From Syntrophaceae bacterium (GTDB taxonomy: Bacteria; Desulfobacterota; Syntrophia; Syntrophales; PHBD01), in NCBI GenBank assembly GCA_013177825.1, contig JABLXX010000006.1:124001-188000 (forward strand): a stretch of 64,000 nucleotides of DNA, written 5' to 3'. The position numbers and the translations under genes are program-made. The notes under the pieces are model-generated. The model was given only the letters and a program-made list of their open reading frames with translations. It had not been told where the DNA came from and ran no database searches. This document shows positions 46,284 to 52,254 of this stretch, piece after piece (positions within the stretch are counted from its first letter, which is position 1; each line of letters begins with the position of its first letter).

Positions 46284-46343
46284 CTTTGATGTGTAGGGAT
46301 CGTCAGACTCGAACGCCTCTAGGGAAGAATTCATTTAAGATAC

Positions 46344-46373
46344 TTGACAAGTTCTCGTGAATTCAGATAAAGA
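46344..46373 (+). promoter_or_regulatory. promoter of the fluoride cargo operon
   Basis: TTGACA (46344-46349) is followed at 17-18 bases by an AT-rich -10 region (ATAAAG/TAAAGA, 46367-46373). Transcription from it would begin at about 46379, just before the riboswitch aptamer at 46381, so the cargo likely has its own promoter, independent of phage early transcription. Confidence 0.6.
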
Positions 46374-46380
46374 TATACAT

Positions 46381-46491
46381 GGTGATGGAGTTCACCGAGA
46401 ACCGCCCTTGGGGCTAATGACTCCTGCTTGAACGATGTGTCCAGCAGGGGGAAAGGCTCCTGCAGGACACGAATCCTGGAGGAGCTTTTTT
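46381..46491 (+). promoter_or_regulatory. fluoride riboswitch (crcB motif) with translational platform
   Basis: The aptamer at 46381-46427 matches the crcB consensus: GGTGATGGAGTTCACC (stem GGTGA/TCACC), GCCCTTGGGGC hairpin, then TAATGACTCC, whose ACTCC (46420-46424) can pair with GGAGT (46387-46391). Downstream, GCAGG (46444-46448) can pair either with the aptamer's CCTGC or with CCTGC at 46459-46463; GCTCCT (46456-46461) can also pair with AGGAGC (46480-46485), hiding the ribosome-binding site. The alternatives give a clean off/on switch in front of the dynamin-like gene. Confidence 0.88.
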
Positions 46492-48162
46492 ATGCCTTCT
46501 GTCGAACAGACCATCTCCGCCACCTCGCCCAGTTTTCTTGAGATTCTCGTTCCCATTCGCGAGGCTGTCTCCCGTTTTCACCTAGTCTCCCTTGAGCGGA
46601 CTCTTGACATCTGCGAAGGCCTTGCTGCGAAAAGTCCTATCATCGATGTAGCCGTCTTTGGTCAGTTCAAGGCAGGAAAGAGTTCCTTTCTCAACAGCCT
46701 TCTCGGTCGCCGTTTGTTGCCTGTGGGCGTCATTCCGGTGACAACGGTTATCACCCGCATTATGCATGGTCCCGAGGAGCGAGCTGTCGTGTCTCATTTC
46801 GATGGGACTCGGACAGAGATTTCCCTCGATTGTCTTGAGGAGTTCACTTCCGAAGCGAAAAATCCAAACAATGAAAAAGACGTGGCGGTTGTTGATATCG
46901 ATCTGCCCTCGCTGGACAGATATTGGGGACTCCGTTTTGTGGATACACCGGGTCTGGGGAGCGTTTTTAAATACCACATGGAGACCTCGGAGAACTGGCT
47001 TCCGGAAGTGGGATCTGCGCTCTTGGCCATCAGCGCAGATCGGCCTCTCTCAGATCAAGACCTAGTTCTGATTCGAGAAGTTCTCCGGTACACGCCCGAA
47101 ATCGTTCTGATCCTTACAAAGGTGGACCTACTACTGCCAGCTCAACAGGACGAGGTGGTGCGCTTTTTCCAAGCAACCTTGAAAAAGGAACTAAACCGCG
47201 AATTTCCAATTTATCTCTTCTCCAACCGCCAGGATACGGATCTTCTCAAGAACAGGCTGGAAACAGAACTCCTCACTCCCTTGGCTAGGAATCGAGACTC
47301 CGAGTTTATCCGGATCCTCCATTACAAGATCCGGTCCCTTGCAGGAAGCTGCTCGAGTTACTTAGACATCGCCCTCAAAACCTCCCTCCGTGCCGATGAG
47401 GACCGCCAGGCCCTCCGGGACCAGATTCTTGGGGAGAAATCCAACATCACCCAGATCGACGAGGAGTTGATGATCATGACCCGGGAGACCTGCCGCTACA
47501 CCCGGGTTAATATTGACAAGTATCTGAACCAGTTCAAAAGACCCCTTAAAGAGAAGCTTGCCGCCCGACTCGCGAACGATATGGCCAGCTGGCATGGGAA
47601 CCTCTGGAAACTGTCGCGCCGATATGAGGAGTGGCTTCGTGACGTCCTGACAGAGGAACTGGAAGAGATCTCCCAGAGAGAAAACCGGAATTTCTTCGGC
47701 ACGCTGCTCAAGACTCAATCAGCCCTGGATCGATATTTGAAGTCCTTCCGGGCCATTTTGGAGGGTAACATAGAGCGGGTCCTGGATGTCCGGATGGCCA
47801 CGGCGCAGTGGAACATCGAGGTAGACGAGCCCTCCCGGCCGGACATCCAGGTAGGGCATACCTTCCAGTTCAACTACGACCTTCTGTGGTTCCTGATTCC
47901 TATGGTCCTGTTCAGGAGGTTCTTCGAACGCCATTTTCTAGCCCAGATTCCCAAACAGGTAGAGGTGAACTTCTCCCGCCTGTCGAATTCCTGGGAGGAA
48001 CGTATAAATCGAACCATTGAGGACATGAGAAAGCAGGCCTCCCGCTACATCCGGGAGGAGATCGAAACCATCGAGGGACTCCTGTCTCGGACGGAGGACC
48101 AAACGGAAACGATCCAAGGTCTTATCAATGCAATCGACAGAAATGAGGGACCCGCATGCTGA
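46492..48162 (+). CDS. dynamin-like GTPase
   Basis: 556 residues from the ATG at 46492 (GGAGG at 46478-46482). GTPase motifs: P-loop [14 protein letters not shown] (about residues 55-68), a switch region VTTVIT, G3 VDTPGLGS and G4 TKVD. A long helical region with the pattern of dynamin stalks follows, plus a hydrophobic patch [15 protein letters not shown] that could insert into membrane. Bacterial dynamins remodel or repair membranes; this one is directly under a fluoride riboswitch and is followed by enolase. It may protect membrane integrity under fluoride, but that is inference. Confidence 0.85.
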
Positions 48163-48200
48163 ACGATGGGTTCCATCATCATCAGAACGGAGAAAACGCC

Positions 48201-49499
48201 ATGAACCAGAAGATCAAAGCCATCAATGCTATTGAAATCCTCGATTCTCGAGGAAACCCTACCATCCGGACCTACGTTACTCTGACTGGAGGCATCACCG
48301 CATCCGCATCTGTTCCCTCTGGGGCATCCACCGGGGAAAACGAAGCCATTGAACTCAGAGATGGTGGGCGGACCCGTTACGGAGGCAAAGGAGTCCTCAA
48401 GGCGGTTGCCCATGTGAAGGAACTTATCGCACCAATTCTGATTGATATGGACCCCACTCAGCAGGCGGAGATTGATCGCCTCATGATCCTCTTGGATGGG
48501 ACTACGAATAAGGCAAAGCTGGGGGCCAACGCGATCCTGAGTGTTTCTATGGCTGTCGCTCGGGCGGCCTCGATGGCGGCGGGCCTTCCCCTCTATGCCT
48601 ACATGGGCGGTTTCGGGGCGCTGCGCCTGCCTGTCCCCATGATGAACATCCTCAATGGTGGCAAGCATGCCGACAACAGCGTCGACTTCCAGGAATTCAT
48701 GATCATGCCAGTGGGCGCTCCTTCCTTTAGTGAGGCCCTTCGTTATGGAGCTGAGACGTTTCATGCCCTGAAAGGCATTCTCGCCGCGAAGGGATACGCA
48801 ACCAACGTCGGCGACGAAGGTGGATTTGCACCGGACCTGAAAAGTAACGACGAGTCATGTGATGTGATCGTCGAGGCCATCTGGGAAGCCGGTTACAAGC
48901 CGGGCAAAGACATTGCCATTGCACTCGATCCAGCGGCCAGTTCTTTTTATGAGAACGGCATATACAACCTATTGAAGTCGGGGCAGGGAAAGAAAACAAG
49001 TCGGGATATGATCACCTTTTATGACAAATGGATCAGTAAATATCCTATCGTTTCCATTGAGGACGGACTGGCGGAGACCGACTGGGAAGGATTCCGTCAG
49101 CAGACGGCCACGCAGGGAGACCGGATCCAAATCGTGGGGGACGACATCTTCGTCACCAATCCCATGTTCGTACAGCAGGGCATTCATGAGAAGACGGCCA
49201 ACGCGGTCCTGATCAAGCTGAACCAGATCGGCACCATTACAGAGACGATGGAAGCGATCAGCCTATGCCGGAAAGCCGGTTGGGGTTATGTAATATCTCA
49301 TCGTTCCGGTGAAACGGAAGATACGTTCCTGGCCGATTTTGCCGTTGCGATGGGAGGAGGACAGATCAAAACAGGGTCTGCCTGCCGCAGCGAGCGAATT
49401 GCAAAGTATAACCGCCTTCTAGAAATCGAGACTGAACTCGGGAAGGCGGCGATTTTCGAAAATCCACTGAAGGGAGGTGGCGTGAAGGACAAAACCTGA
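48201..49499 (+). CDS. eno: enolase (phosphopyruvate hydratase)
   Basis: 432 residues from the ATG at 48201 (GGAG upstream; an earlier in-frame ATG at 48156 would add an unusual tail). Catalytic motifs are intact: [10 protein letters not shown] loop, [57 protein letters not shown] (Lys) and [14 protein letters not shown]. It converts 2-phosphoglycerate to phosphoenolpyruvate. Enolase is a classical fluoride target (fluoride/phosphate/Mg complex), so an extra copy in a fluoride-regulated operon would restore glycolytic or gluconeogenic flux. As a second eno it is probably cargo, not the housekeeping copy. Confidence 0.95.
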
Positions 49500-49548
49500 G
49501 AACGGAAATCCGCAGAGATTCAAAAGAAGGGGCGGTAATTTCCATGTC

Positions 49549-49657
49549 GGGTGATGGGGTCCACCGTAACTGCTGCTTTGATCAGCTGATGACTCCTGCC
49601 AGCCGAACTTTTTCAGAGAAAGAGCGAGGCAAAACGCATTCTAATTGGCGAAAGGAG
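49549..49657 (+). promoter_or_regulatory. second fluoride riboswitch (crcB motif)
   Basis: GGGTGATGGGGTCCACC, TAACTGCTG, CAGCTGATGACTCCTGCC follow the crcB consensus almost base for base. In the fluoride-bound state ACTCC (49592-49596) is held in the aptamer. Otherwise CTCCT-GCC (49593-49600) can pair with GGC (49647-49649) and the AGGAG (49653-49657) of the antiporter ribosome-binding site, closing it. It is the second such switch in one operon. Confidence 0.9.
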
Positions 49658-49665
49658 CATCAATC

Positions 49666-50814
49666 ATGGCGGTGGATAGCATCTGGCTTACCTCTGCGCT
49701 TTGGATGGGCTTGGCCCTGTTGTCATCACTCATCTCCATCCGGGTAGGCATTTCCGTTGCACTCATCGAAATCTTCGTCGGTTTTCTCGCGGGAAACATT
49801 GTTGGTCTCAGCATAACTCCATGGGTCAATTACCTGGCGGGCGTTGGCTCCATCATGCTGACATTCTTGGCAGGGGCTGAAGTAGATCCCCAAGTGATCC
49901 GAAAACATTTCGGGTCGAGCATTGGGATCGGAATGGCAGGATTTCTTATCCCATTTTCCGGAATCCTTCTATTCAGCCGTTATGCTCTTGGGTGGACCTG
50001 GCCGCAGTCGCAAATTGCCGCTCTTGCCTTGTCAACAACGTCCGTTGCGGTTGTTTACGCCGTCATGGTGGAAACGGGACTCAATCAGACCGAACTGGGC
50101 AAGATCATTCTGGCGGCATGTTTCATTAACGACCTGGGAACCGTTGTCGTCCTCGGCGCTCTTTTCGCCGATTACGATGTCTGGCTGGCTGTTTTCATAC
50201 TTGTCACAGCGGCAGCCATGTGGGGAATCCCGAGATTTCTTCCCTGTTTTTTCCGCAGGGTTGGGGATAGGGTCAGTGAACCGAGAATCAAGTTCATTTT
50301 TGTCCTGCTTTTTCTACTAGGAGGGCTGGGTGACTTGGCCAAGTGTGAAGCGATTCTGCCGGCCTATTTGATCGGCATGGTTCTGGCGCCCTTCTTTCTG
50401 AAGGAGAAGGAACATGCCAAGCGATTGCGGGCCGGTACTTTCGTGTTCCTCACGCCCTTTTATTTTCTGAAGGCAGGCTCGTTCGTAAAGTATTCTGTTG
50501 TTCAATCTGCGTTCGTCCTGATCCTGATCTTTCTGGCCGTAAAAATGCTGACGAAGTTCATCGGCGTCTGGCCGCTCACCAGAAGTTTCCGGTTTAAGTC
50601 CCGTGAAGGGACTTACACCACGCTTATGATGTGCACTGGTCTCACGTTCGGAACGATTGCCTCCCTGTTCGGTCTGAACAACGGAATTATCAGCCAGGAC
50701 CAATACACGATCCTTGTTGCGGCCGTGATCGGAAGCGCCCTGCTTCCCACTCTTGTCGCACAGAAGTGGTTTCAACCCCCTATGAATGGTTTGGAGGAAA
50801 AGACCGATGTATAA
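49666..50814 (+). CDS. CPA2-family cation:proton antiporter (KefB/NapA-like)
   Basis: 382 residues from the ATG at 49666, with the AGGAG that the riboswitch controls eight bases upstream. About eleven TM helices can be drawn (SALWMGLALLSSLISIRVG; GVGSIMLTFLAGAEVD; CFINDLGTVVVLGALF; FVFLTPFYFLKAG). The conserved ND-like pair in FINDLGT typical of sodium/proton or potassium/proton exchange is present. No C-terminal TrkA-N domain is attached. Related genes are known riboswitch-linked partners; it may export Na or H, or aid F- removal indirectly. Confidence 0.85.
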   Translation: MAVDSIWLTSALWMGLALLSSLISIRVGISVALIEIFVGFLAGNIVGLSITPWVNYLAGVGSIMLTFLAGAEVDPQVIRKHFGSSIGIGMAGFLIPFSGILLFSRYALGWTWPQSQIAALALSTTSVAVVYAVMVETGLNQTELGKIILAACFINDLGTVVVLGALFADYDVWLAVFILVTAAAMWGIPRFLPCFFRRVGDRVSEPRIKFIFVLLFLLGGLGDLAKCEAILPAYLIGMVLAPFFLKEKEHAKRLRAGTFVFLTPFYFLKAGSFVKYSVVQSAFVLILIFLAVKMLTKFIGVWPLTRSFRFKSREGTYTTLMMCTGLTFGTIASLFGLNNGIISQDQYTILVAAVIGSALLPTLVAQKWFQPPMNGLEEKTDV

Positions 50815-51226
50815 AAAAATATTGCACGGAATGGATGGATCGGAAGGGGCTTTCAAAGCGCTAAAGGAAGCTATAGACATTGCAAGACTGCATGGAGCAG
50901 AACTGCATTCCGTAAGCGTTCAGGAGGTTCCCCACTATGCCGGTACCATTGGAGAGGTGATGGAAGAGGAAGCTTCTTCCAAGGCCTATTTCAACGAAAT
51001 TGCTGCTGGCGCACGGGAGATAGCTCAGGAGGCCGGAGTGGATCTTCATGTTCACGTCATTGTCGGGCACGAGGCCAAAACGATCATCGAAATGACGAAG
51101 AAATTCAAATTTGATCTCCTTGTTCTAGGATTTATGGGCCGTTCGGCGTTGTATGACCGGGTCATGGGAAGCACCTGCCAGAACCTAGTTCGCCTCGCGC
51201 CCTGCTCGGTCCTTGTCGTAAAATAA
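50807..51226 (+). CDS. universal stress protein (UspA family)
   Basis: 139 residues; start at 50807 overlaps the antiporter stop, with GGAGG upstream. Walker-like nucleotide motif is LVLGFMGRSALYDRVMGSTCQNLVRLAPCSVLVV. It begins KKILHGMDGSEGAFKAL, typical Usp. Usp proteins are often co-regulated by fluoride riboswitches. Its tight coupling suggests a role in supporting the antiporter. Confidence 0.9.
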   Translation: MYKKILHGMDGSEGAFKALKEAIDIARLHGAELHSVSVQEVPHYAGTIGEVMEEEASSKAYFNEIAAGAREIAQEAGVDLHVHVIVGHEAKTIIEMTKKFKFDLLVLGFMGRSALYDRVMGSTCQNLVRLAPCSVLVVK

Positions 51227-51238
51227 GGAATTCATCAG

Positions 51239-52105
51239 GTGAAAGTCGTTGCGAATCCCGGGTGTATGTCGGGAAGCGAGCTATGCAATGATTTGATTGT
51301 ACATTACATTCGGGAGAGACGATGTACTGGTGGGGGATATTGCTTCTATCGACTCCCGGAACCGAATGGATCAGATACTTATCACGCCTTGTCCTCGCTT
51401 CGCTTGCTGGATCGACTTGAACAAGATGATGAAACAGCAGCTTTTCTTCTGGATCGCCAGACGTCTAATGGTGCCTATGAGAGCATATTCCAAGCGTATT
51501 ACTGCCTCAAAAGCCTCTCAATCCTGGGCCTTGAACCCAAAACGGATCCCTCTACTTACATCCTTCAGCATTTGCGGGCCTATGACGTCGATTGCCTACC
51601 AGTTGGAGTGACATCCATCTTCTATAAGTTAATGACGGTTATTGAACTGCGACAGCTACAAAGACTATCCGTAACGTTTCCACAGAAGGAGTCCCTTACG
51701 GATTTCCTGTTCCGGTACCAGCAGATAGACGGGGGGTTCGGTTATCCTCACTCGACACTGGTTGAAACATACCAAGCCACTCGGATCCTTGTTGGACTTA
51801 ATTATCCGGTAACTTCCTTAGGAGTGGATTGTTTTCTTGCGGCCTGTGAAGATCCGGTTTTTGGGTTCATAAATATGCCTAGGGCGCACTCAGCCTTCTT
51901 GGAACATGTGTCTGCGGGTATCGGTCTTTCAGAGTTTTTAAACCGGGAGGTCAAGTATGGAGACATCATCAGCACGTTTATACGAGCTTGTCAGAGCAGG
52001 AATGGAGGTTTTTCCCGAGCGACTCATGCGGGTATTGCATCCCTTGAATATACCCATATGGCCGTCGACGCCCTTGCAATAATCTCAAGATTAAGACTAG
52101 GGTGA
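51239..52105 (+). CDS. prenyltransferase/terpene-cyclase-toroid-like protein
   Basis: 288 residues from a GTG at 51239 (AAGGA upstream). There are about four repeats of the toroid type: GGGYCFYRL...YHALSSL, SNGAYESIFQAYYCLKSL, DGGFGYPHSTLVETYQATRIL and NGGFSRATHAGIASLEYTHMAVDAL. These resemble beta-subunits of protein prenyltransferases or squalene-cyclase-type units. There are no clear catalytic DDxD motifs. Function is unknown; lower GC than the genes before it. Confidence 0.6.
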   Translation: MKVVANPGCMSGSELCNDLIVHYIRERRCTGGGYCFYRLPEPNGSDTYHALSSLRLLDRLEQDDETAAFLLDRQTSNGAYESIFQAYYCLKSLSILGLEPKTDPSTYILQHLRAYDVDCLPVGVTSIFYKLMTVIELRQLQRLSVTFPQKESLTDFLFRYQQIDGGFGYPHSTLVETYQATRILVGLNYPVTSLGVDCFLAACEDPVFGFINMPRAHSAFLEHVSAGIGLSEFLNREVKYGDIISTFIRACQSRNGGFSRATHAGIASLEYTHMAVDALAIISRLRLG

Positions 52106-52254
52106 AAAGAATATTATACAGTTAAGATATAGGACTTGTAATTATTAATACAATATATGAACAAAAAGAGAATGTAGATTAACATATAAACGAGTATCAA
52201 ATTTAAAGCTTTTCTTAACCAACCGGCGTTTTATTACAATAAAACAGAAAACGC
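52106..52254. other. AT-rich gap after cargo
   Basis: About 150 bases of low GC without coding potential between the cargo and the candidate sRNA promoter. No specific signal seen. Confidence 0.5.

Follow-up and report, generated by a model that had tools for sequence, protein, structure and literature searches.

The fluoride-riboswitch leader

The window, a stretch of 64,000 nucleotides from a Syntrophaceae bacterium, contains a fluoride island carried by a Mu-like prophage, in which genes for a dynamin-family GTPase and an enolase are followed by a second fluoride riboswitch and then by genes for an antiporter, a universal stress protein and a prenyltransferase-like protein (Table 1). The leader of the dynamin gene carries the first fluoride riboswitch, which the initial annotation had drawn as a translational on/off switch built from alternative pairings of an aptamer strand and three strands downstream of it. 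We consider it likely that this leader is instead a fluoride-activated transcription attenuator working through a four-strand relay, and that it is mainly a transcriptional ON switch, with occlusion of the Shine-Dalgarno (SD) sequence as a second layer.

The presence of a fluoride riboswitch is borne out by the RF01734 covariance model, which matches 46372-46433 over model positions 1-64 at 60.1 bits against a gathering threshold of 34. The pseudoknot strands GGAGU and ACUCC are found in this aptamer as GAUGGAGUUC and AUGACUCCU, and the aptamer is predicted to bind fluoride. The strands of the drawn switch all lie where the initial annotation placed them: ACTCC at 46420-46424, CTCCTGCT at 46421-46428, AGCAGGGG at 46443-46450, GCAGG at 46444-46448, GCTCCT at 46456-46461, CCTGC at 46459-46463 and AGGAGC at 46480-46485. 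We number the four strands from the aptamer toward the gene and denote their helices as 1:2, 2:3 and 3:4.

The final hairpin (3:4) pairs 46456-46467 with 46474-46485 as GCUCCU-G-CAGGA / UCCUG-G-AGGAGC, and is abutted without a gap by TTTTTT at 46486-46491, after which the ATG follows at 46492. Eleven base pairs with one mismatch (-19.3 kcal/mol) and then six uridines (U6) give it the form of an intrinsic terminator that also holds the SD, and the hairpin with its U tract is predicted to terminate transcription. Strand 4 does contain the SD, as the drawing of an SD-burying hairpin required, but the six T residues had been overlooked and the hairpin is terminator-like. Since this U6 ends at the start codon, control is most likely exerted chiefly on transcription; a purely translational switch would have the SD in its switching hairpin and no terminator. 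The output level was probably mis-assigned, with SD occlusion as a secondary layer. A simple terminator scan of the window did not list the hairpin at 46456-46485, probably because of its mismatch.

The terminator also departs from the direct-exchange platform of the Bacillus cereus type, in which the pseudoknot strand itself is the terminator 5′ arm. Here the 5′ arm begins at 46456, 32 nucleotides past the pseudoknot strand, the partner of strand 1 is strand 2, and the U tract begins 52 nucleotides after the aptamer.

Table 1. Features of the dynamin leader and of the fluoride island (window coordinates).
Feature	Position	Strand	Evidence or remark
Probable promoter (TTGACA 46344-46349, 16-nucleotide spacer, GATAAA 46366-46371)	46344-46371	+	Sequence reading, inferred
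Fluoride riboswitch aptamer, RF01734	46372-46433	+	60.1 bits, E-value 3.6e-14
Strand 1, ACTCCTGCT: aptamer 3′ pseudoknot strand, alternative partner of strand 2	46420-46428	+	Sequence, fold, shuffles
Strand 2, GTGTCCAGCAGGGG: partner of strand 1 (without fluoride) or strand 3 (with fluoride)	46437-46450	+	Shuffles
Strand 3, GCTCCTGCAGGACAC: near-copy of strand 1; antiterminator 3′ arm and terminator 5′ arm	46456-46470	+	Fold, shuffles
Strand 4, TCCTGGAGGAGC: terminator 3′ arm, includes the SD	46474-46485	+	Fold
U6 tract of predicted intrinsic terminator, also SD-to-ATG spacer	46486-46491	+	Sequence; T-run conservation in dynamin leaders
Dynamin-family GTPase, first gene under the switch	46492-48162	+	PF00350, E-value 7.7e-22; same start in G001
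Enolase, start probably 48201 as in G001	48156-49499	+	PF00113, E-value 5.9e-123
Second fluoride riboswitch aptamer	49541-49605	+	RF01734, 52.4 bits; fold
CPA2-type cation/proton antiporter	49666-50814	+	PF00999, E-value 7.1e-40; TIGR00932 match below its cut-off
Universal stress protein	50786-51226	+	PF00582, E-value 7.1e-32
Prenyltransferase-type alpha-alpha toroid protein, last island gene	51239-52105	+	PF00432, E-value 2.8e-14

Three mutually exclusive helices

The logic of the original drawing, in which fluoride turns the gene ON and the pairings of strands 1 with 2, 2 with 3 and 3 with 4 exclude one another, is supported by folding, by shuffling and by related leaders. Folded without constraint, 46370-46500 has as its minimum free energy (MFE) structure the OFF state as drawn (1:2 plus 3:4), with z = -4.4, and none of 200 dinucleotide shuffles is as good. 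When the stretch between strands 1 and 3 is shuffled 1000 times with dinucleotides preserved, the 1:2 helix has p = 0.010 and the 2:3 helix p < 0.001, and no shuffle matches both jointly. The leader thus has the three neighboring helices of a four-strand attenuator, mutually exclusive and above chance. Because an automated search for terminators wrongly labelled T runs that belong to the antiporter coding sequence, the comparison relied on hand-defined strands and an unbiased relay score, which is 7.73 for this leader against a maximum of 4.90 among 300 of its shuffles.

The alternatives are not, as had been claimed, of similar strength. The 1:2 helix has -9.8 kcal/mol, compared with about -24 for 2:3 and -19 to -23 for 3:4. 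The ON pairing GCAGG/CCUGC exists, but the drawing missed an outer stem between GUGUCC (46437-46442) and GGACAC (46465-46470) that makes the helix much longer: the five drawn pairs give -5.9 kcal/mol, GUGUCC-A-GCAGG / CCUGC-A-GGACAC gives -17.2, and the optimum with two further pairs reaches -24.1. Similarly, 3:4 strengthens from -7.7 kcal/mol for the drawn pairs to -19.3 over its full length and to -23.3 when A/U closure is included. The 2:3 and 3:4 helices are in balance, and the weaker 1:2 helix tips the outcome.

Recurrence in related leaders

We compared the leader with those in 155 genomes of a Syntrophales-like order of the Desulfobacterota, the order name being taken from the labels of relatives (Syntrophobacterales, Syntrophaceae). 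The genome of the window is G000, and G001 is a genome of the same genus (HGW-Deltaproteobacteria-19, contig PHBD01000004.1). A fluoride riboswitch lies directly upstream of 49 of 51 near-full-length dynamin homologues; the aptamer is lost in G150, and the G131 locus is cut by a contig end. This dynamin-like GTPase is therefore consistently tied to fluoride in the order. Nothing relevant to such a link was found in the open-access literature, three Bacteroidota dynamin homologues that we examined have no fluoride riboswitch, and a search of viral contigs and phage records for dynamin relatives gave no relative and one weak partial match.

A run of at least five T residues precedes the start codon in 40 of the 51 dynamin leaders and in none of 27 antiporter leaders of the same order (Fisher p = 1.8e-12). 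Most dynamin leaders are direct, with the aptamer strand ACUCC pairing to GGAGU ahead of the U tract. Of 49 leaders tested, 36 show a switching fold when the aptamer strand is withheld. In the antiporter leaders, the complement extends through the aptamer strand (GAUGACUCC with GGAGUCAU, GAUAACUCC with GGAGUUAU), and the covarying pairs comprise 10 G-C, 9 A-U and 7 G-U with one mismatch. These leaders appear to share a translational design across the order, as expected for SD sequestration.

Relay leaders have a terminator 5′ arm of their own, distinct from the aptamer strand, with an inverted strand placed between the two. This architecture is found upstream of the dynamin gene in G000, in a scar of the island elsewhere in that genome, and in G001, G151, G154, G148, G144, G149, G004, G016, G017, G073, G011, G117 and G114, where the separate arm nearly duplicates the aptamer strand, and upstream of other genes at L143, L135, L154, L160 and L161. 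The strands, their alternative pairings and the U tract, together with this recurrence, are established by sequence and comparison. Of 21 indirect leaders tested, 20 have an intervening stretch able to pair with either neighbor (joint p ≤ 0.01 each, in statistics that ignore phylogeny); L113, considered as a relay leader, was rejected on a 2:3 p of 0.92. The 2:3 helix is kept despite sequence change, being GUGUCC/GGACAC in the window, CCCGCAGGAG/CUCCUGCGGG in G017, CCACGACAGGAG/CUCCUGUCGUGG in G073 and CUGGAGGAGUU/AGCUCCUCCAG in G114, and the window strands differ from those of G001 with all three helices retained. Native partners give a mean 2:3 energy of -18.8 kcal/mol, compared with -13.5 kcal/mol when partners are swapped between leaders.

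By the automated relay score, the window leader ranks 3rd of 107. About 20 of the 107 score above all 428 shuffles, and 15 of those also exceed 5.69, the maximum of a second set. Elsewhere in the phylum, 11 of a sample of 39 leaders score above 4.2, a value exceeded by 1.3% of shuffles, and 6 lie above the highest shuffle (5.69). At L195, strand 3 includes an exact copy of ATGACTCCTGC. Placed on the dynamin tree, the relay label requires 7 changes, at least 5 of them being forced by well-supported branches, and the direct and relay forms therefore interchange. It is plausible, and in our judgment somewhat favored, that fluoride riboswitches of the Desulfobacterota repeatedly evolved this relay platform, in which the terminator is built from a decoy copy of the aptamer's pseudoknot strand while the inverted strand between the two transmits the ligand signal, with flips between direct and relay forms keeping the sign of regulation.

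Some dynamin units of the order are decaying (decay loci L185 and L089). In G149 there is an internal deletion, and G150 has lost the aptamer together with strands 1-2 but keeps the terminator hairpin with T7 before the gene. At L092 (G151:C187), four fluoride riboswitches lie within ~6 kb, distributed over both strands, and a single one of these is upstream of the dynamin gene.

Proposed mechanism and alternatives

In the mechanism that we infer, from fluoride binding through the order of events to termination as the chief output and the extent of the operon, strand 1 (46420-46428) would be held by the aptamer pseudoknot when fluoride is present. Strand 2 (46437-46450), left free, would zip onto strand 3 (46456-46470) once 46470 exits the polymerase, forming an antiterminator of 11-13 bp. 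Strand 4 would then stay single, with no terminator and an open SD, and the dynamin gene, probably along with the enolase gene, would be expressed. Without fluoride, strand 1 would take strand 2 and thereby free strand 3 for strand 4, RNA polymerase would terminate in the U6 just ahead of the ATG, and the SD of any read-through RNA would remain inside the hairpin.

We folded the leader at equilibrium at each exposed RNA length, in place of cotranscriptional kinetics. With RNA exposed to 46485, when the U tract is within the hybrid, 1:2 and 3:4 dominate if strand 1 is free (7.4 and 8.0 expected pairs, ~0.73 mean pairing), while 2:3 has 13 expected pairs and 3:4 has 0.0 if strand 1 is held. Several points weigh against a clean relay. 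The pseudoknot is represented in these calculations solely by withholding strand 1, and the pairing statistics for the related leaders set phylogeny aside. Between exposed ends 46470 and 46482, 2:3 is favored even in the ligand-free ensemble, and termination therefore needs either kinetic persistence of 1:2 or displacement of 2:3 by 3:4; on this basis, the switch may leak without fluoride. Once the whole U tract is exposed, 3:4 prevails again at equilibrium even if strand 1 is held, which would make the ON state a kinetic one. In several other relay leaders, such as G154, G148, G016 and L143, the bound-state equilibrium still prefers 3:4.

The T runs that mark most dynamin leaders and are absent from antiporter leaders also bear on whether the same pairings could regulate translation alone, by SD sequestration, with U6 merely an A/T-rich spacer. 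The SD lies directly within strand 4, the U tract is broken in two relay relatives (TTATTT in G148 and TTCT in G144), and the antiporter leaders of the same genomes are translational in design. However, those T runs argue against it, as does the dynamin leader of G146, where a hairpin followed by T9 stands ahead of a separate SD and terminator and SD are thus kept apart; we consider purely translational regulation unlikely.

An ordinary direct switch, with strand 1 competing with strand 4 (CUCC/GGAG) and strands 2 and 3 incidental, is the form of most dynamin leaders in the order and the published mechanism (PMC13273304; PMC11077080). It is very improbable here, where the terminator 5′ arm is strand 3 rather than strand 1, the MFE structure combines 1:2 with 3:4, and the complementarity of strands 2 and 3 is kept in divergent leaders. 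The leader could also be a relic or a poor switch in a prophage, its structure kept but its gene constitutively ON or OFF, and both the transient dominance of 2:3 without ligand and the decay of dynamin units in relatives (the G000 scar, the internal deletion in G149 and the aptamer loss in G150) would fit such a fate. Yet the aptamer, U6, promoter-like boxes and open reading frames of the window copy are all intact, and its strands have diverged from those of G001 while preserving every helix, which makes a relic very unlikely.

Relation to known systems

Leader attenuators such as trp have the same 1:2, 2:3 and 3:4 topology, although in the window a ligand-held aptamer strand stands in place of the stalled ribosome. 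Fluoride riboswitches serve as a model of the conversion of ligand binding into a transcription decision, and the platform described for them is direct strand exchange, in which the pseudoknot strand is exchanged into the terminator base (PMC13273304; PMC11077080). The transcriptional switches of Bacillus cereus and Thermotoga petrophila (crcB motif, RF01734) resemble the window leader in aptamer, ON logic and intrinsic terminator output (PMC13273304; PMC11077080), but the window leader takes its terminator 5′ arm from a separate near-copy of the pseudoknot strand and has an extra strand to relay the signal. No antiterminator is mentioned in PMC13273304, whose covariation model of experimentally validated terminators is confined to post-aptamer lengths of 5-40 nucleotides, and relays with the 52-nucleotide spacing of the window would therefore be left out. 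The translational fluoride riboswitches of Burkholderia pseudomallei and Pseudomonas syringae, classed as such in PMC13273304, would likewise have the SD in their final hairpin, whereas the window hairpin has U6 after it.

The closest parallel is offered by the yxjA purine riboswitch, in which an intermediate, central helix that can coexist with neither the aptamer nor the terminator decides the outcome (PMC9756952). That helix draws on the P1 sequence of the aptamer, and expression is switched OFF by ligand (PMC9756952). In the window, the 2:3 helix is formed without the aptamer strand, the 1:2 helix comes in addition, and expression would be switched ON by ligand. Within the open-access literature, the relay appears to be a new form of a fluoride switch described until now mainly as direct strand exchange. 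Orthologous leaders of one gene, for example direct in CG03 and relay in its close relatives G011 and G117, allow testing of how a strand is gained without inversion of the output.

The island genes and the carrier prophage

The promoter candidate in Table 1 is absent from a consensus promoter scan of the window because its -10 box lacks the final T; TTGACA is found at equivalent spacing upstream of the same riboswitch in G001 and in the G000 scar. In the fold of the second riboswitch, a strand sequesters the antiporter SD AAAGGAGC (49651-49658) and there is no U tract. It seems to be a purely translational fluoride switch, and the two switches of the window are, by their predicted structures, one of transcriptional and one of translational type. 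The toroid protein that ends the island is also present in the G001 island, at 64% identity. A fluoride-resistance operon on genomic island GI3 of Enterobacter cloacae FRM is also mobile, controlled by a fluoride riboswitch and equipped with eno and uspA (PMC5533749), but no dynamin gene is mentioned in that report, and the carrier in the window is a Mu-like prophage.

The genes for MuA, MuB, Com, endolysin, terminase, portal and Mu-type head proteins identify this prophage as Mu-like. The G001 copy of the island lies in the chromosome, flanked by citramalate/isopropylmalate-synthase-like and purL-like genes (named from their open reading frames), and at the corresponding site G000 has only the scar, in which the riboswitch is fused to the last ~38 dynamin codons. 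This scar (L035 5686-5912; G000:C6 ~78.7-78.9 kb, outside the window) has an intact aptamer and relay hairpins, no U tract, and a short in-frame open reading frame after the retained SD. The backbones of G000 and G001 are 91-98% identical at that site, compared with 80.8% between the prophage island and the G001 island, and the G000 prophage island was therefore probably acquired from another lineage.

A sibling prophage in G001, with a MuA 97% identical, has no fluoride island; the slot that follows Com is occupied there by genes for Type I restriction-modification and for a putAbiC-domain protein. The fluoride island can thus be prophage cargo. The variable cargo slot of these Mu-like prophages spans 46284-52243 in the window and 5866-11745 of L169 in G001.
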